Made by a program: the position numbers and the translations under genes
Notes under the pieces: generated by a model
Databases searched by the model: none
What the model was told of the DNA's origin: nothing
The model's input: only the letters and a program-made list of their open reading frames with translations
Shown here: positions 7,335 to 15,473 of the stretch, piece by piece
How positions within the stretch are numbered: the first letter of the stretch is position 1
Layout: each line of letters starts with the position of its first letter
Source: Acholeplasmataceae bacterium
GTDB taxonomy: Bacteria; Bacillota_I; Bacilli_A; ML615J-28; CAG-698
Assembly (NCBI GenBank): GCA_012841865.1
Contig: DUTX01000063.1
Span: 1 to 64,000 of the forward strand
Length of the DNA stretch: 64,000 nt
Direction of reading: 5' to 3'

Positions 7335-8246
7335 TTAGTTTAGTAAATCTTCCGCAAACTTATCGTCTCTTACCCCCATAAAAACCGGTTGTCTTAGTCC
7401 GCCTTCTTTTGTTTTCATCATATACCGCACCCTTCCGACCAACTTTGGAACCATCCAGATAACATTTTCTTTTTCTGGAAATAGAGGAATTGAAGGATTG
7501 TTTTTTGCATAATTGATAATCTGTTGTTTAAATTTTCCGGTGACGACAGATCCTGCTCGAATGATTTTTCCGTCTAGGTAACGCCCTAAAATTAAGTCAA
7601 TGACATTTTCTTTTGGGATATAACCGCAGATAATCAAGTCATCTTCTTCATAGATTTTGATTTTTAGCCAAACGGAACTCCTTTTTCCGGGATAATAATG
7701 GCTGTCTTTTTTTTTAGCAACGATACCTTCTAATTTCATTTCTTTGACAACTTGAAAAAGTTTTTGACCATTTTCTTTGATATATTTAGAGATTATTAAG
7801 TCCTTGCTTTCTTGAACATTTTCTTGGAGTAGCTTTTTCCTTTCTAGTAGGGGAGTATCAATTAAGAATTTGTCCTTTAAATAAAGCAAATCAAAAGCAA
7901 CATAGATGACCGGGTTGATATTAGTTTGGATTTTTATCTTAAAAGGATCGGTCATTAAAGATCTTCTTTGGAGTGCATAAAAGTCCGGTTTTCCGTTTTT
8001 TATTAAAAGAAGTTCGCCGTCTAAAAGCATTTTCACCTTTACATTTTGATGTAAATTCTTTAATTCTGGATAGGTTTGATTTAAGATTTTCCCACGTTTA
8101 TTTATTAGTTCGGTAGCTTCATCCAGATAAGCAAGACACCTGATGCCGTCAAATTTTAATTCATAGAGATAGTCGGGACTGTTGAAAACATCTTTTGCTT
8201 CCTCAAAGAGCATCGGCGAAAGATTTCTTTTTTCAAAGCTGTACAT
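7335..8246 (-). CDS. ligD: ATP-dependent DNA ligase (LigD ligase domain) for NHEJ
   Basis: 303 residues covering only the ligase: an adenylation domain with the catalytic lysine motif ELKFDGIR (Lys about 31), the LDGEL motif III, LEGIVAKKKDS motif IV, and SVWLKIK motif V. An OB-fold domain follows. It seals double-strand breaks after recruitment by Ku. The polymerase and phosphoesterase domains of classical LigD are absent, as in several minimal NHEJ loci. Its ATG directly follows the ku stop codon (TAAATG), so the two are co-translated. Confidence 0.93.
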   Translation of the reverse strand: MYSFEKRNLSPMLFEEAKDVFNSPDYLYELKFDGIRCLAYLDEATELINKRGKILNQTYPELKNLHQNVKVKMLLDGELLLIKNGKPDFYALQRRSLMTDPFKIKIQTNINPVIYVAFDLLYLKDKFLIDTPLLERKKLLQENVQESKDLIISKYIKENGQKLFQVVKEMKLEGIVAKKKDSHYYPGKRSSVWLKIKIYEEDDLIICGYIPKENVIDLILGRYLDGKIIRAGSVVTGKFKQQIINYAKNNPSIPLFPEKENVIWMVPKLVGRVRYMMKTKEGGLRQPVFMGVRDDKFAEDLLN

Positions 8247-9023
8247 TTAAGCTCTGGCTTCCGATTCAATATTTTTTAAGCTTTCCTCTAAAGCCGTCAT
8301 TAAATCAAGAGCTGGATGATAATCACCTTCCTCTTTGACATAGACGGTTTTTCCGGCAATTTTTGCTTGAATCGCCTGTTCGATCTTTTCTCGATATTCG
8401 TCTCTAAAAGCACTGATTTCAAAAGGTTTGGTGAGTGTATTTAAAAGAGTAATCGCGAGATTTAGTTCTTGTTTATCAAGTTTGGTTTTTACATCCGGAT
8501 AAGGATAAGCAAGCATATCTTCATGAAAGTGGAGCGTGTTTAAGTACATGATTCCGGATTTTACTCTTAAGGCGATTAATTTCTCCTTGGTTCCTAATAC
8601 TGTTTTCGCAACCCCGCATTTCTTTTCTTTTTCCATTGCTGCTTTAAGAAGCGAAAAAGCGCGTTCGGCACCTTTTTCCGGAACAACATAATAAGCCTTA
8701 TCAAAATATAAAGAATCAATTGCGCTTAAGTTGACAAATTGTTTGATAACAATGGTTTTGTCGCGCTTTGATTTCAATTTTTCAAAATCAGCGGGAGTAA
8801 AGATTACATATTTTCCCTTTTCATACTCATATCCTTTTACAATATCCTCCTGCGGAACTTCTTGATTATCGCAATCGACGCAGGTTTTTTTATATTTAAC
8901 TCGGCTCATCGTTTTTTTATCGACAAGATGAAAACTAACCCCACCACCTTTTACAACATTATACAAAGCAACCGGTATATAAATAAGCCCGAAACTGATT
9001 GCTCCTTTAAAACTAATAGCCAT
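8247..9023 (-). CDS. ku: Non-homologous end-joining protein Ku
   Basis: 258 residues, normal for bacterial Ku. The N-terminus MAISFKGAISFGLIYIPV and the DIVKGYEYEKGKYV block are family signatures. A KTCVDC motif near residue 46 is a small cysteine pair seen in some Firmicute Ku proteins. The homodimer encircles broken DNA ends and recruits the ligase encoded immediately downstream. The gene is divergent from a small helical protein gene at 9152, and about 128 bp of shared upstream DNA separates them. Confidence 0.95.
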   Translation of the reverse strand: MAISFKGAISFGLIYIPVALYNVVKGGGVSFHLVDKKTMSRVKYKKTCVDCDNQEVPQEDIVKGYEYEKGKYVIFTPADFEKLKSKRDKTIVIKQFVNLSAIDSLYFDKAYYVVPEKGAERAFSLLKAAMEKEKKCGVAKTVLGTKEKLIALRVKSGIMYLNTLHFHEDMLAYPYPDVKTKLDKQELNLAITLLNTLTKPFEISAFRDEYREKIEQAIQAKIAGKTVYVKEEGDYHPALDLMTALEESLKNIESEARA

Positions 9024-9151
9024 TTTTCTGCCTCCAGATTTTGATTTAATAATATTATTTCTATTTTGGAAAAAAATATAAAAAATCTCAAAAAATTACA
9101 ATAGTTATTTGTTATATTAGTGAGAAAAGGATAATAAGAAAGGAGCGGCGT

Positions 9152-9328
9152 ATGAATAATAATACACAAGCAAAAATCAAAGATTTGAACAAAAAGATTA
9201 AGATCTCGAAATTGAAACGTGATGCATATTCTTTGCTTGGCCACTCTAAAAAAGTCCAAGAGAACAAAAAAACTATTTTTGAACTGGAAACTAAATTAAT
9301 GAAAATTAAATTGGATTCCACAAAATAA
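9152..9328 (+). CDS. Small helical (coiled-coil) protein, 58 residues
   Basis: A 58-codon frame (start MNNNTQAKIKDL, end KLDSTK) with a strong AAGGAG site nine bases before the ATG and a terminator 11 bases after the stop. The sequence is Lys-rich, with heptad-like Ile/Leu spacing and no membrane segment, so a short coiled coil is likely. It has no family that I recognise. It is divergent from ku and could be linked to NHEJ or simply be an unrelated neighbour. Confidence 0.65.
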   Translation: MNNNTQAKIKDLNKKIKISKLKRDAYSLLGHSKKVQENKKTIFELETKLMKIKLDSTK

Positions 9329-9339
9329 TGTGTAAAGCA

Positions 9340-9364
9340 AAAAGCCATTTTAACAATGGCTTTT
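9340..9364. terminator. Bidirectional terminator
   Basis: A 10-bp stem AAAAGCCATT/AATGGCTTTT (9340-9349/9355-9364) with a 5-nt loop. It serves the small ORF on plus and the GH3-AraC gene on minus. Confidence 0.9.
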
Positions 9365-11225
9365 AATCATAATATTCGGAATTATTTCTAAAATAGGAAG
9401 GAGTCATTCCGGTTGCCTTTTTGAAAACTTTTGTAAAGTAATTCAAATCTGCAAATCCACAAAGATTTCCGACTTCATAGATTCTAAGATTTGTGGTCAA
9501 CAATAAATGTTTGGCTTTAGCAACCCTTACCATATTCAGGTAATTTACAAAATTGATTCCGATTTTTTGTTTGAATAGCCGGCAAAGATAACCCGAAGAA
9601 ATTAAAAATTCATCCGCAACGCTTTCAAGCGTTAACAGTTTTGCATAATTTCCTTCAATATATCTGATGATTCTGTCAATCAGATAATTTTTTAATTCAC
9701 TTTGACTTTGGCTTCGTCCGAGTTTAACGGGTAGTTTGCCTTCAGCTTTTTCACCTTTTAAGACAGCAAGTAAAGATTTAACCGAAAGGCGTGTGTATTC
9801 GTAAATGCAGATATGGCATTCCGGTAAACCTTGGCCGAGGACGTCATAAGGAGTTCTTAGTGAAATCAGCATCACTTTTGCTTTGGTTTGAATAAGATTG
9901 GTATAAAGTACTTTTTGAACTAAGGTTAAATGCGAATCCGATAAAGCAAGAACAACTTTTTTTCCTTTGACAAACTCTTGAACTTCATTGACATTGAAGT
10001 TTTTATTATCTATCGAAAGATAAGGAATCTTGAATTCTTTGCCTAAGATTTTCGCAATATCCAAATCTTCTACATTTTTGTCTTCCGCTATTGAACTAAC
10101 ATAATTGGTGACACCGACTATGACTGTTTCATCGTCAATCGGAAACGGAGTTCCGGAAGCAATGGTAATGCTTGCTAAGCTTGCCGCTTCCGCAAGCTCC
10201 CGATTCTTTTCAAAGTCAATTTCGGCAGTTGCTTCCATGCAATATTTTTCTTTGTATTTTAAGATTCTTGCGACTGCTTCATCGACATGTTTTAAGAATC
10301 CCGGATCGGATTTTGCGGCTTCGAGGAGAGAATTCCGAACGATGAGTTGGCGGCCGAAAGAATGACTGATTGTCAAGATGTCACAACTTGCTTGAACAGC
10401 AAAAATTACTGCCCCACCCAAGGAGTAAGCTCGGGTTAAGGCATCCATTTCCAAACAATCAGAAATAACTAAGCCCTTAAACCCAATTTCTTTTCTAAGG
10501 AGATCAAAGATTATTTTTTTAGAAATTGAAGCCGGAAAACGGTCGTCAAGTTTGCGATAAAGAATATGAGCGGTCATAATCGCATCCGGTAAATATGAGC
10601 CTGTGTAAGGCAAGAGTTCGAGCGTTCTTAGATCTTTTAGCGATGCATCGATACAGGGAAGGTCGAGGTGCGAGTCGATATGGACATCTCCGTGCCCGAT
10701 GAAGTGTTTATAACAGGATAGAACGCCTTCCTCCTGAATCGCTTTGCTCATTTGGCCGGCAAGTTGTCCTACCAAATGGGGGTCATCGCTAAATGAGCGA
10801 ATCCCGATAATCGGGTTCATCGGATTGGTATTAACATCCGCTACCGGAGCAAGGACACAATTGACACCAAGGTTTTTCAGTTCTCTTCCGATAATTTTCC
10901 CGATTTCGGAAGCGACTTTCGGACGGGAGAATGAGGCAGCTCCGATTGCCATATGACCGGGAACGCTTGTAACGCCATTATAAACGCGTCTGATGCTACC
11001 CCCCTCCTGGTCAACGGAAATTATTGCCGGCACCCCGTTATATTTTAAAGCCGCTTCCTGAATATCCGCAGTTAGTTTTTTGAGGTGTTCTGCGGATTTT
11101 ATATTACGAGAAAAGAGAATGATGTTACCGTAATGGTATTTTTTTATAAGCTCAATGATATCCTTTGTTTGTGTGCTTTGCCATCCGACCATCAGCAACT
11201 GGCCGATTTTTTGTTCTAGTGTCAT
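9363..11225 (-). CDS. GH3 beta-N-acetylhexosaminidase fused to an AraC-type DNA-binding domain
   Basis: 620 residues in one uninterrupted frame. Residues 1-330 are a GH3 domain of NagZ type: SVDQEGGSIRR (70-80), KHFIGHGDV with D184-S-H186 (NagZ acid/base loop), and the nucleophile Asp256 in ISDCLEM. Residues 340-500 look like a GH3 C-terminal alpha/beta sandwich. Residues 515-615 are a two-HTH AraC/XylS domain (LTLESVADEF, GYLCRLFKQ, GFADLNYFTKVFKKATGMTPSYF). No signal peptide, so cytoplasmic. It is the last gene of the importer operon. The protein probably cleaves, or only senses, imported N-acetylhexosamine sugars and controls the operon (inference). Confidence 0.9.
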   Translation of the reverse strand: MTLEQKIGQLLMVGWQSTQTKDIIELIKKYHYGNIILFSRNIKSAEHLKKLTADIQEAALKYNGVPAIISVDQEGGSIRRVYNGVTSVPGHMAIGAASFSRPKVASEIGKIIGRELKNLGVNCVLAPVADVNTNPMNPIIGIRSFSDDPHLVGQLAGQMSKAIQEEGVLSCYKHFIGHGDVHIDSHLDLPCIDASLKDLRTLELLPYTGSYLPDAIMTAHILYRKLDDRFPASISKKIIFDLLRKEIGFKGLVISDCLEMDALTRAYSLGGAVIFAVQASCDILTISHSFGRQLIVRNSLLEAAKSDPGFLKHVDEAVARILKYKEKYCMEATAEIDFEKNRELAEAASLASITIASGTPFPIDDETVIVGVTNYVSSIAEDKNVEDLDIAKILGKEFKIPYLSIDNKNFNVNEVQEFVKGKKVVLALSDSHLTLVQKVLYTNLIQTKAKVMLISLRTPYDVLGQGLPECHICIYEYTRLSVKSLLAVLKGEKAEGKLPVKLGRSQSQSELKNYLIDRIIRYIEGNYAKLLTLESVADEFLISSGYLCRLFKQKIGINFVNYLNMVRVAKAKHLLLTTNLRIYEVGNLCGFADLNYFTKVFKKATGMTPSYFRNNSEYYD

Positions 11226-11229
11226 AAGA

Positions 11230-12072
11230 TCATCCTTTCACAGCACCAGCGGTTAAGCCTTTGATTATATTCTTCTGGAGGAAAAAGTAAACAATGATAA
11301 CAGGAATTGCGATTACGGCAACGGAAGCAACCATCAGTCCGTAATCGGTCCCACCTTCTTTGGAGCTGATTTCCTTCAGCAGCGCGCTGACTGGCATCTT
11401 TTCTTCATCGGTAAGAATCAACATTTGTAAGAACAGGTCATTATAAGACCAAAGGAATACAAAGATTGCTGCGGAAGAGAAAGCAGATTTCGACATCGGC
11501 AGAATCAGATGCCAGAGAATCTGAAAAACATTGGCGCCGTCCAGATAGGCTGACTCTTCCACCTCAACGGGAATATTTTGGATAAATCCGGTAATCAGAA
11601 TTGTTGCAAAAGCAAGATTTCCTGCAACTTGCGGTAATATTACGCCAAAATGTTTTCCGTTTAGCCCCAGATTATAAAGCAGTTTTTGCAAGGGAAAAAT
11701 TATTGAAAAGATTGGAAACATCATGCAGGCAACAATCATACCGTAAATAATTTTTTTAGCTTTAAATTCATAACGCGCCAAGGCAAAGGAACTAAAAGCT
11801 GTTATGAAGATTACTAAGATAACTACCGAACCGGAAATTAAGAAACTGTTCAGATAAGCACGAAGGATATTATAACGCCCATAGAGAGCGGCTTTGTAAT
11901 TATCAAACGTGAAGGTCGTAAGCGGAATACTGAAGGAATCGACAAGGATTATGTTTTTTTCTTTAAAACTATTCAACAATACCCAAATGAAAGGATAGAG
12001 TGTAAATAAAGACCAAAAACTTAAGACAAAATATATTAAGACTTTTCCAAAAGTAATTCTTTTTTTGTTCAT
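11230..12072 (-). CDS. Carbohydrate ABC transporter permease, MalG type
   Basis: 280 residues with six transmembrane segments. The EAA loop near residue 185 (EESAYLDGANVFQILWHLILPMSK) contacts the ATPase. It forms the channel with the MalF-type subunit encoded 9 bp upstream. The family imports oligosaccharides. The next gene, 4 bp downstream, is the GH3-AraC fusion, which suggests an amino-sugar substrate. No ATP-binding subunit is in this operon, so a shared MsmK-type ATPase elsewhere is likely. Confidence 0.93.
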   Translation of the reverse strand: MNKKRITFGKVLIYFVLSFWSLFTLYPFIWVLLNSFKEKNIILVDSFSIPLTTFTFDNYKAALYGRYNILRAYLNSFLISGSVVILVIFITAFSSFALARYEFKAKKIIYGMIVACMMFPIFSIIFPLQKLLYNLGLNGKHFGVILPQVAGNLAFATILITGFIQNIPVEVEESAYLDGANVFQILWHLILPMSKSAFSSAAIFVFLWSYNDLFLQMLILTDEEKMPVSALLKEISSKEGGTDYGLMVASVAVIAIPVIIVYFFLQKNIIKGLTAGAVKG

Positions 12073-12081
12073 ACACCCTCC

Positions 12082-12960
12082 TTATAAATCCTTGTTTTGT
12101 TTAAAAATGGAGTTTGAGATGAAACTTAAAATGACACCCGCTAGCGCGATAAAAACCGCAAAAGCTGCAGCATACCCGCCCGCATTGCTTTGGAAGGCAA
12201 CCTCGTACATATAAGTCCCGAGAAAATGCATTTTTCCGCTTGGATATCCCATCGGATCAATGATATGTGGTAAGTCGAACACTTTCAAAGTTCCGGTGAT
12301 GGCTAGAACAACTACGCTTCTTGTGACGTTCTGTAGCATTGGCAGTTGAATATAGAAAACCTTTTGGAAAGCATTCCCGCCATCGATTTCCGCAGCTTCC
12401 AGTAAGTCTTCTGGAATACTGGCTAGTCCCGTCAGAAAGATTACAAAATAAAAACCGATGTATTGCCAGATTACTGGCATAACAATTAATGAATAAAGTC
12501 GTGGCAGAATACTTGGATCCTTCCAAAAGACTTTTTCGCCTCCAAATATTTCGAGAATCTGATTAAACATTCCGTACTGATAATCATAGAAAAGATTGAA
12601 CATTAAACCGAGTGCGGTTGCGGAAACGACAATCGGCATAAAGAAAGTAACTTTATAAAATCCAGCTAGTTTTCGAATCGAGTTTACCAATAGGGCAAGA
12701 ATTAGAGCAACTCCGACCTGAAAGATTAAAACAAGACCGATTAATATTAAAGTATTAATTAACGATCTTTGAAATTTCACATCGGTAAACATTGTCAGAT
12801 AATTATCAAAACCGACATAGCGAGGATTCTTATCCAAAATGCTTTCATAATCAAAGAAACTATTATAGATATTAACTATAAAAGGATAAAAAAGAAATAT
12901 AATAAAAAATGCAAGCATCGGGGTTATGAAGAGATAGGCAATCCATTTTTTCTTGTACAT
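12082..12960 (-). CDS. Carbohydrate ABC transporter permease, MalF type
   Basis: 292 residues with six transmembrane helices. The N-terminus MYKKKWIAYLFITPMLAFF and an EAA loop (LLEAAEIDGGNAFQKVFYIQLPML) mark a sugar-importer permease of the UgpA/MalF family. It pairs with the MalG-type permease downstream. It is separated from the solute-binding protein gene by a perfect 12-bp hairpin that may lower its expression relative to that gene. Confidence 0.93.
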   Translation of the reverse strand: MYKKKWIAYLFITPMLAFFIIFLFYPFIVNIYNSFFDYESILDKNPRYVGFDNYLTMFTDVKFQRSLINTLILIGLVLIFQVGVALILALLVNSIRKLAGFYKVTFFMPIVVSATALGLMFNLFYDYQYGMFNQILEIFGGEKVFWKDPSILPRLYSLIVMPVIWQYIGFYFVIFLTGLASIPEDLLEAAEIDGGNAFQKVFYIQLPMLQNVTRSVVVLAITGTLKVFDLPHIIDPMGYPSGKMHFLGTYMYEVAFQSNAGGYAAAFAVFIALAGVILSFISNSIFKQNKDL

Positions 12961-12980
12961 AGTCCCTCCCTTAAAAAGAA

Positions 12981-13007
12981 GAGGTATTGCAGCACCTGCA
13001 ATACCTC
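12981..13007 (-). terminator. Intercistronic 12-bp hairpin (partial terminator or mRNA stabiliser)
   Basis: Perfect arms (12981-12992/12996-13007) with a 3-nt loop, followed on the minus strand by TTCTTTTT. Such hairpins between binding-protein and permease genes usually raise the binding-protein to permease ratio. Confidence 0.75.
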
Positions 13008-13012
13008 AATCT

Positions 13013-14266
13013 TTATTGTGCATCCGCAAAAATTTTTAGAGCAGCTTTGATGGCTGTTTCATTAGCAGTTAGATAGTCATTAGCAGCAGATACTAAGTGA
13101 ATGAAAGTTCCGGCTTTTGCGGCGTCGGATAAAGGCAAGGTGGCTTCTGCAGTTCTTGCCGGCATTGAGTTCATCGAAATTTGCAGATTGGTCTGATTAG
13201 CGAGTACAACTGCAGGATCGGCAGGAATACCACCGCCGGCACAGAATTTTGCTATTGATTCGGTTTTTGTCATCATTTCTACTAATTTAACGCAAAGTTC
13301 GCGTTTATTCGGATCGTTCCAAGCCTTTTTCGAGATATAGAAGCCGGAAGTAAATCCGCTTTGCATGTAGACTTTGTTCTTGCCGCCTTCATTTGTCGGA
13401 ATAGCCGGGAAAGGAACCATCTTTAATTTGCTGGCTTTTACTTTGGTTGTTTCATCAAAGTTGACAGCAAACCAAGAGCCGTCAAGAATCATTGCTGCTT
13501 TTGCATCTTTAAAGGTAGCTTCGGCCATCTGATGTTCTTGATTCCCATTTGTCGGGCCGAACCAGCCTAAATCGGCGAAATGTTTGAATTTCTTTAAAGC
13601 ATTGACCCAAGCATCTTCATGGTCTTCAATTGAATCCTTGATATTTGTAAAGGCATCAGGACCCAATGTACCTAGGACAAGATGTTCAATCCAGTAATGA
13701 GGAACATCGGTTGCGCCGAGTGCAAAAGGAATAATGTCCTTAGCAATCAGTTTTTCCGCAATATCATGGTAATCTTGCCATGTCCAAACATCTTTTTCCA
13801 GATAGCTTGCTAAATCGCCCGTAAAGAGCTCCGTATTCACAAATACCCCTTCAACAAATCCTTTTAGAGTCACAGCGTAAGGATCAATGACACTATCGGA
13901 AATGTTCTTTGCATAATCGGGATATTCTTTTCTGATATCCGCGATAGAAACGACTAACTTATTATCCACCAGGGGTTTTGCTGTAGCCCCGGTAAAGTAG
14001 AAGAGGACGTCGGGATCGTTTCCGGCATAAAAGGCTGAAATTACAGAAGTTTTCCAAAGTTCATCGGAAGTGGCGGAACTGTCGTTGATTTTCACATTAT
14101 ATTCTTCTTCAAACTCTGCAATTAAAGCTTCATAAATTTCCGCATGCGGGTCGGTTCCGCCGAACATGCTGATAGTTTTCAACTCAACACGATCATCCTT
14201 TTCACAACTGACTAATAAAAATCCCAAGAGAACAAAAAACAAAACAGAAAAGATTCTCTTATACAT
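13013..14266 (-). CDS. ABC transporter sugar-binding lipoprotein
   Basis: 417 residues. I placed the start at 14266, eight bases after GGGAGG. A signal peptide ends in a LLVSC lipobox (Cys about 21). The mature part has the extracellular solute-binding protein family 1 pattern (LFTGDLASYLEKDVWTWQDY, AMILDGSWFAV, SGFTSGFYISKKA). It captures the sugar outside and delivers it to the two permeases. It is the first gene of the operon, directly behind the promoter at 14298-14326. Confidence 0.93.
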   Translation of the reverse strand: MYKRIFSVLFFVLLGFLLVSCEKDDRVELKTISMFGGTDPHAEIYEALIAEFEEEYNVKINDSSATSDELWKTSVISAFYAGNDPDVLFYFTGATAKPLVDNKLVVSIADIRKEYPDYAKNISDSVIDPYAVTLKGFVEGVFVNTELFTGDLASYLEKDVWTWQDYHDIAEKLIAKDIIPFALGATDVPHYWIEHLVLGTLGPDAFTNIKDSIEDHEDAWVNALKKFKHFADLGWFGPTNGNQEHQMAEATFKDAKAAMILDGSWFAVNFDETTKVKASKLKMVPFPAIPTNEGGKNKVYMQSGFTSGFYISKKAWNDPNKRELCVKLVEMMTKTESIAKFCAGGGIPADPAVVLANQTNLQISMNSMPARTAEATLPLSDAAKAGTFIHLVSAANDYLTANETAIKAALKIFADAQ

Positions 14267-14297
14267 ATGTACCTCCCTCTGGATATTATCCAACCTA

Positions 14298-14404
14298 AGT
14301 ATAGCACGGAAAAATAGCCAGAACAACGTACTAAATTTGATATTTATAGTAAAAAATTAACCAATGTAAGCGTTTTTGTGGTAATAAACAAGATTTTTGC
14401 TTAC
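14298..14404 (-). promoter_or_regulatory. Promoter of the sugar importer operon with upstream inverted repeat
   Basis: -35 TTGTTC at 14321-14326, 17-bp spacer, -10 TATACT at 14298-14303 (minus strand). Upstream lies an inverted pair GTAAGC/GCTTAC (14366-14371/14399-14404) with A/T-rich inner flanks. Its nearer arm is about 40 bp before the -35 box, a reasonable place for an AraC-family activator site. Binding by the GH3-AraC protein is inference. Confidence 0.55.
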
Positions 14405-14453
14405 TTATATTATATCAATTAAGGAATATTAAAACAATATTTTCCAAGTTAAA

Positions 14454-14477
14454 TAAAAAATATCGCGAGAGCGATAT
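14454..14477 (-). terminator. Terminator of the SRPBCC gene
   Basis: Stem ATATCGC/GCGATAT (14460-14466/14471-14477) with a 4-nt loop. The minus-strand transcript then has six U. Confidence 0.8.
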
Positions 14478-14496
14478 ATAATTTTTTAGTAAAAAA

Positions 14497-14934
14497 TCAA
14501 TCTTTTAAACAACTTTTTACAAGATTATCTAATACATAGTCCCAGGCCTTATTAAAATATTCATAGACATCATCCCAATCATCGGGATAACCTAGGTTAG
14601 TGAGTCTGACTAATGTATTATTATCTTCAGGGATAAATTCTAAGACTACCCAAGTCTGATAACCGGATTCTCTTTTATCTTTAAATTTCGGGGGTGTATA
14701 CCAAGTAAAAGAAAACATTTAGTTCGGAAGAAAAGAAAGAACAACACAACCTTCGCTGCCACGAGCTTTAATACTTTTGTCGGTACTAAAATAGATTTCA
14801 TACTTTCCCTTTGGAGTAATTTCAATCTCATTATCAGCACTGAAAAATGAATTCAGCCCTTCCTTGGTTGTCCACTTTTTATAGAGATATTCCCTAGTTT
14901 TATTAATTAATCTTTCTTTGATAATTGCTTTCAT
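14497..14934 (-). pseudogene. SRPBCC/AHSA1-domain protein, interrupted by an in-frame TAA
   Basis: The two halves, 71 and 73 residues, are in the same frame. They are separated only by one TAA at 14719-14721, directly followed by ATG. Together they make one full-length AHSA1-like START/Bet v 1 domain: KKWTTKEGLNSFFSADNEIEI at the N-side, then LSFLPN-stop-MFSFTWYTPP, then NTLVRLTNLGYPDDWD at the C-side. In homologs the junction usually reads LSFLPNEMLSFTW, so a GAA to TAA change fits. It could be a recent pseudogene, a sequencing error, or two chains made by UAAAUG re-initiation. Confidence 0.75.
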
Positions 14935-15062
14935 ATTCCACCTTTGAATAAGTAATAACTAAAAAATTAACCGGAAAATATTGTAACAGATTTGTCGTAA
15001 TTGAAACACACAGGCTAACAATCTTTTTAACAAAAACCCAATCGAGTTATTTTCAATCAGAA

Positions 15063-15473
15063 TTAATTCTTTTGAATAAGCGATTTGTTATAAATTCTAT
15101 TGACATCGTTTTGTTGATGGATATATTTTACATAAGCTATGATAACACAAATACCTAGGGTCAGGGCACCTAAAATAAAATAACTTAAGAGGAAAAACAA
15201 AAGTGTTAAACGGTTCGGAACACCATGTTTTTCACAAAAATTCCCGCGTCTGTCAACAAGCAGTGCCTGCCAAATGACAGAATATATTCCCAAGGTAATA
15301 ATTGACAATAGGATATATCCAATTAAACCTCTGGTACGTCTTCCATCTTCTCTACAAGCTATATTTGTTTCTTTTGCGAAAGCGTGAATTAAATAAAGTT
15401 GGTAGATTCCAAGAGTAATAATTGTAAAGAGTAATACTTTCCAAAAGCCCCTATTGACTGGTAAAGTTTGCAT
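15063..15473 (-). CDS. DUF4234-type membrane protein
   Basis: 136 residues. The start at 15473 lies after a GGGGGAG site. It has about four hydrophobic segments, including a LLFTIITLGIYQLYLIHAF repeat that recurs as ILLSIITLGIYSVIWQALL. This duplicated TLGIYxxYW motif is the hallmark of DUF4234. The function is unknown. It is monocistronic. Confidence 0.75.
   Translation of the reverse strand: MQTLPVNRGFWKVLLFTIITLGIYQLYLIHAFAKETNIACREDGRRTRGLIGYILLSIITLGIYSVIWQALLVDRRGNFCEKHGVPNRLTLLFFLLSYFILGALTLGICVIIAYVKYIHQQNDVNRIYNKSLIQKN

Follow-up and report, generated by a model that had tools for sequence, protein, structure and literature searches.

A GH3 glycosidase joined to an AraC-type DNA-binding domain: a candidate self-regulating enzyme of a sugar-import operon in Mollicutes-like bacteria

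Enzymes and AraC-type DNA-binding domains have been found in one polypeptide before. In Ada, an AraC-type DNA-binding domain is combined with a methyltransferase whose reaction switches the activator on, and in Rsp and AryK of Staphylococcus an AraC helix-turn-helix shares a chain with a GH39-like domain. Both differ from the protein described here: Ada serves DNA repair through a single-use self-methylation, with a domain order and fold unrelated to those of the fusion, and Rsp and AryK represent another glycoside hydrolase family in another domain order and are a lead only. No paper stating an architecture of AraC plus GH39-like domain was found, and the AryK paper makes no mention of a glycosidase domain. 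Likewise, by its name the NCBIfam model NF010701, a transcriptional regulator/glucokinase fusion, places a sugar enzyme and a regulator in one chain, as in the GH3-AraC fusion, although the enzyme is a kinase and the regulator is of another type.

The closest known kind is the trigger enzyme, such as PutA or BirA: a single polypeptide that catalyses a metabolic reaction and also directly regulates transcription for the pathway in which it acts, and both of these are described as repressors (PMC6978683). By domain content and sequence the fusion resembles them in being enzyme and regulator in one protein, but neither is a glycosidase and neither has an AraC domain. The closest described enzyme is PsNagA of Paenibacillus sp. 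FPU-7 (6k5j), the best match in sequence and in fold to residues 1-501 of the fusion and identical to it in catalytic residues, which cleaves (GlcNAc)2 in the cytosol (PMC8233162). PsNagA lacks a DNA-binding domain; near its gene stands nagB1, adjoining genes for a separate sensor kinase and response regulator, and the binding proteins NagB1 and NagB2 take (GlcNAc)2 and (GlcNAc)3 (PMC8233162). The muropeptide-salvage NagZ proteins, those of the window's class and of Paenibacillus/Cohnella, have a GH3 part about 35-43% identical to that of the fusion with the same catalytic residues, but they lack a helix-turn-helix, retain KHFPGHGD, fall outside the fusion clade and lie in NamZ/MurQ/AnmK clusters. 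Trigger enzymes and one-component AraC regulators are already known; the new element is a GH3 glycosidase with an AraC output, of which no described regulator was found in the open-access literature searched, a result that is not proof of novelty.

Architecture and distribution of the fusion

The window, a stretch of 64,000 nucleotides from an Acholeplasmataceae bacterium, holds a single frame of 620 residues without internal stop (Table 1). Pfam places Glyco_hydro_3 (PF00933) at residues 1-322 (E 9.8e-77) and HTH_18 (PF12833) at residues 536-613 (E 1.6e-20; 73.6 bits against a cut-off of 33.6), positions that may be one off from M1 numbering because the query was numbered from T2. The C-terminal double helix-turn-helix scores 66.2 bits with the HTH_AraC model and belongs, above the Pfam cut-off, to the AraC/XylS type. 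By phmmer, the alignment of residues 1-501 with 6k5j, a GH3 beta-N-acetylglucosaminidase of two domains, spans almost the entire enzyme, and Foldseek, run on an AlphaFold2 model whose confidence is modest (pLDDT 67.8), returns the same entry as the top structure over the same residues. Since both comparisons span the whole two-domain enzyme, the middle of the fusion is no spacer, and judged by them the protein is a complete PsNagA-like GH3 enzyme that carries a DNA-binding domain at its C-terminus. The chain starts straight in the enzyme fold, with no signal peptide discernible by eye, and its two parts are joined by a linker of about 11 residues that is poorly conserved (mean identity 23%, versus 62% in the barrel, 63% in the C-domain and 51% in the helix-turn-helix). 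An earlier note on this DNA had read a GH3 and an AraC domain in one 620-residue frame, and the Pfam domains, the 6k5j match and eight other genomes bear it out.

Table 1. Features of the fusion gene, its operon and the operon promoter in the window
Feature	Position	Strand	Remarks
Stem-loop and T run, probable operon terminator	9336..9364	-	immediately follows the fusion gene
Fusion gene	9363..11225	-	GH3 barrel 1-330; GH3 C-domain 331-504; variable linker 505-515; AraC HTH ~516-616
ABC sugar permease 2	11230..12072	-	PF00528; adjoins the fusion in other loci too
ABC sugar permease 1	12082..12960	-	MalF/UgpA-type permease models; conserved position
Stem-loop between binding-protein and permease genes	12981..13007	-	same place in 7/7 loci
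Solute-binding lipoprotein	13013..14266	-	start ATG 14266; listed ORF begins further upstream at TTG
-10 box TATACT	14298..14303	-	promoter of the operon
-35 box TTGTTC	14321..14326	-	17-bp spacer to -10 box; overlaps operator repeat 2
Putative operator repeat 2, TATCAAATTTAGTACGTTGTT	14322..14342	-	direct repeat, lag 20
Putative operator repeat 1, GGTTAATTTTTTACTATAAA	14343..14362	-	direct repeat, lag 20

Given that the window's genome (G000) is a 189-contig draft, the joined frame might be an artefact of assembly or annotation that merges two genes; this is next to impossible and already refuted, as the identical architecture recurs in independent genomes, two of which (G163 and G181) are single-contig. 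The fusion is present in nine related genomes, the window's included, and the other eight copies, 57-83% identical, extend over four families of the class. Whole-genome searches give 83% in G005, where the first third is missing, and 81% in G006, both of the window's genus, then 66% in G057, 65% in G068, 61% in G630, 60% in G163 and 57% in both G181 and G048. The fusion is conserved along its length in other genomes, the single-contig G163 and G181 among them, which puts it far beyond chance. It is sporadic all the same: it occurs in 3 of the 28 genomes from the window's family, in 2 of 8 from the order to which G068 belongs and in 4 of 160 from the order that contains G163 and G181. In a tree of the GH3 part the eight near-complete fusions form one clade (support 100/100) against 23 standalone relatives, which fits a single origin, and the patchy spread suggests transfer or loss. 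All genomes matched at E <= 1e-70 in a 392-genome sample of the phylum belong to the window's class; Paenibacillales were sampled by a peptide-pattern search, which finds close relatives only. Among the best 15 of 1,583 matching plasmid records there is no fusion, because their coverage stops at residue 517 (residues 1-517 at most). In G048 (locus L073) the module is decaying as a unit, with breaks in the fusion, in one permease gene and in the gene for the binding protein, and G048 is the sole genome with the fusion in which NagA does not rise above the cut-off.

The importer operon and its promoter

Four genes make up the operon: the binding-protein gene comes first, two permease genes follow, and the fusion closes it, starting 4 bp past the second permease gene. 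The same four-gene order, with a binding lipoprotein at its head, is found in the window and in G006, G057, G068, G163, G181 and G048, so the earlier note was right to place the fusion in one operon with an ABC importer, and the conservation that it proposed to check is there in six other genomes; in G005 the upstream genes were not seen adjoining the fusion, and the contig of G630 is too short. The genes on either side of the operon differ between genera, and the four genes therefore constitute a self-contained module, which has no ATPase of its own. The stem-loop that follows the binding-protein gene keeps its place in seven loci while its stem sequences differ between genera; it probably sets the binding protein in excess over the rest of the operon, and the regulator would be made in small amounts, as in other importer operons. 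No Rfam match was obtained within 9000-15100.

In class II activation by AraC-type proteins, direct repeats end at the -35 box, lie at a near-fixed distance from the -10 box and accompany a poor -35 match. Upstream of all seven readable operons there is a direct repeat spaced by 20 bp, with a common footprint of approximately TYAA-N5-TACTAT, again 20 bp on, the second copy of which enters the -35 box. Half-site identity summed over the seven loci is 73 at lag 20, as against 55 for the next best lag, a score reached by none of 5000 controls (mean 49.9). The promoter geometry is fixed as well: the second repeat starts 38 bp upstream of the -10 box in the window and 37 bp upstream of it in the six other loci. 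An AraC/XylS target is marked by a pair of direct repeats that are separated by about two turns of the helix and stand beside the -35 box, and this candidate site (14322-14362) lies inside the stretch 14298-14404 that had been named in advance as the DNA to be tested for binding.

A sequence model of the operator, trained on five genomes without that of the window and its sister genome G006 and run over whole genomes, has its best match genome-wide at 14323-14360 in the window's genome (19.7 bits; next 13.3) and at the corresponding promoter in G006 (21.9 bits; next 11.1); the operon site ranks first in the five training genomes too, as expected of training data. There is one outstanding operator-like site per genome, at this operon, which fits a dedicated self-regulating protein of the AraC type that is predicted to bind there. 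Control of its own operon by the fusion is very probable, given the repeat upstream of seven operons and the first rank that the held-out model gives to the window's promoter. Second-ranked model sites in G057 (C32) and G068 (C22) were considered as extra targets and rejected because they lie inside genes, and a simple IUPAC pattern of the operator was discarded because at two mismatches it gave about the same match count as a reversed control.

The surroundings of the operator hold other elements. Just upstream of it, in the window and G006, stands the cre-like sequence AAAAACGCTTACA (14365-14378, minus strand); in other loci a cre-like sequence lies between the -10 box and the ribosome site, where the window and G006 have a TTGGA...TCCA palindrome instead (14280-14293, minus strand). 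Control by CcpA or a LacI-type protein is possible.

Active site and ligand

D184, H186 and D256 of the fusion align with D232, H234 and D318 of Bacillus subtilis NagZ and supply the Asp-His dyad of the DSH motif and the Asp nucleophile that mark GH3 beta-N-acetylglucosaminidases of the NagZ/PsNagA type; for this reason the Asp256 and His186 earlier called intact were correctly identified. All three residues are invariant in the eight aligned fusions, as are R143, K173 and H174, which, going by NagZ structures, are expected to contact the substrate. The ratio dN/dS is about 0.09 overall and low in every domain, as estimated from the one pair with usable dS, since dS is saturated for most pairs that involve the window. 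Because catalytic and contact residues are invariant and selection is purifying, an active enzyme, perhaps a retuned one, is more likely than a dead receptor, and the earlier suggestion of a dead active site serving as sensor loses support accordingly. A loop of the catalytic region reads KHFIGHG[DN] in 8 of 8 fusions versus KHFPGHGD in 23 of 23 standalone relatives, and this change from proline to isoleucine could mean altered or lost activity. Similarly, the cut-off of 207 bits of the beta-N-acetylhexosaminidase equivalog model NCBIfam NF003740 lies above the score of the fusion (193.5) and below that of the standalone NagZ of G163 (220.8).

Judged by its relatives, the ligand is most likely a chitooligosaccharide, with diacetylchitobiose as the best guess, because the solved proteins nearest to the operon's products either bind chitobiose or cleave it in the cytosol and because MurQ and NamZ are absent from the window's genome. 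The operon's binding protein comes nearest to NagB1 and NagB2 of FPU-7, which bind chitin oligosaccharides; the match is weak (E ~4e-15) and of partial coverage. Family searches found neither MurQ nor NamZ in G000 and G005, and in G006 no NamZ and only MurQ-like matches below the cut-off; in these genomes the fusion thus shows neither the linkage to NamZ and MurQ nor the presence of both in the genome by which muropeptide salvage would be recognised. NagA is present in G000, with an in-frame stop inside the match. Of the two kinds of ligand that the earlier note had proposed, chitobiose is favoured through NagB1/NagB2 and PsNagA; muropeptide sugars are not, recycling of muropeptides having been considered and ranked lower because separate NagZ proteins sit in NamZ/MurQ clusters and the window's genome has neither gene. 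G163, G181 and G048 each carry both the fusion and such a separate NagZ.

Proposed mechanism and competing readings

On balance the fusion is probably a trigger enzyme: inside the cell it would act as a GH3 exo-beta-N-acetylglucosaminidase and also, as an AraC-type activator, switch on the import operon to which its own gene belongs. A basal level of importer would take in a GlcNAc-containing oligosaccharide, most likely diacetylchitobiose, which would enter the GH3 active site and be cut to GlcNAc. With this site filled by substrate, by the glycosyl-enzyme intermediate or by product, domain arrangement or dimerisation would change. The AraC domain would then bind both repeats, spaced by 20 bp at the -35 box, in the manner of a class II activator, and transcription of the binding protein, the permeases and the fusion itself would rise. 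With the substrate exhausted, the enzyme would empty and the operon would fall back, so that occupancy or turnover of the GH3 site would be what drives the switch. More tentatively, a catalytically active glycoside hydrolase may be the activator's sensor in a stricter sense, the signal being the occupied or turning-over site, perhaps the covalent glycosyl-enzyme intermediate; the operon would then read flux, not sugar concentration, and would switch itself off once the substrate was consumed.

If the fusion is indeed such a trigger enzyme, it would be, to our knowledge, the first glycosidase to control its own genes directly, with sensor, enzyme and activator in one protein beside a dedicated importer. 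A small self-contained system of one protein, one operator and one promoter would also allow the question whether catalysis itself can be a transcription signal. Further, the fusion hints at a way in which Mollicutes-like bacteria with small genomes could dispense with a two-component regulator such as that found near the same type of enzyme in Paenibacillus.

Other readings of the same locus must be weighed. The GH3 part might be a receptor only, with useful turnover lost, in which case the protein would be a plain one-component AraC regulator and another enzyme would release GlcNAc. The isoleucine in the KHFPGHG loop of every fusion, where standalone relatives keep proline, would agree with this, yet we consider it unlikely given that the D184/H186 dyad and the D256 nucleophile persist in every aligned member and that the fusion is the sole NagZ/PsNagA-type protein among the four GH3 matches in the window's genome, the other three matching the query only weakly. 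The two activities might also reside in one chain without coupling: the enzyme would work and the AraC domain would bind the operator, while the signal would come from protein level, from another ligand of the C-domain or from a second regulator of CcpA or LacI type at the nearby palindromes, fusion merely keeping both together. The cre-like and palindromic sequences flanking the operator would accommodate such an arrangement, as would a short, variable linker that gives no sign of a transmission path; it is nevertheless quite improbable, since a fusion kept intact together with its promoter site across four families is more easily explained by communicating domains.

A further reading reverses the sign of control. 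With repeat 2 overlapping the -35 box, the empty enzyme could cover that box and leave on sugar binding, as a repressor in the manner of PutA or BirA. We regard this as decidedly unlikely, because two direct repeats that end at the -35 box, at a near-fixed distance from the -10 box and with a poor -35 sequence (TTGTTC), form the layout of a class II site, and activation by the fused trigger enzyme is accordingly the reading that we would prefer.

Several minor observations concern other genes of the window and of its relatives. Many GH3 enzymes in the window's family (G017, G023, G027, G020 and others) have open frames of about 875-895 residues and therefore about 350 extra residues after the GH3 part, for which 4zm6, a GH3 protein that includes an acetyltransferase region, may offer a parallel. 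Genes for standalone GH3 enzymes of the class share clusters with genes for NamZ-like proteins, sugar kinases, MurQ and permeases (L115, 7959-9524 and 14041-15540; L116, 6774-12930; L119), which are apparently clusters for muropeptide salvage in Mollicutes-like bacteria; MurQ, the sugar kinase and NamZ were assigned there by family search, and AnmK by eye from its start. Finally, genes for Ku and an ATP-dependent DNA ligase stand side by side (7335-9023, minus strand) as an end-joining pair, which the three genomes of the genus keep close to the operon.
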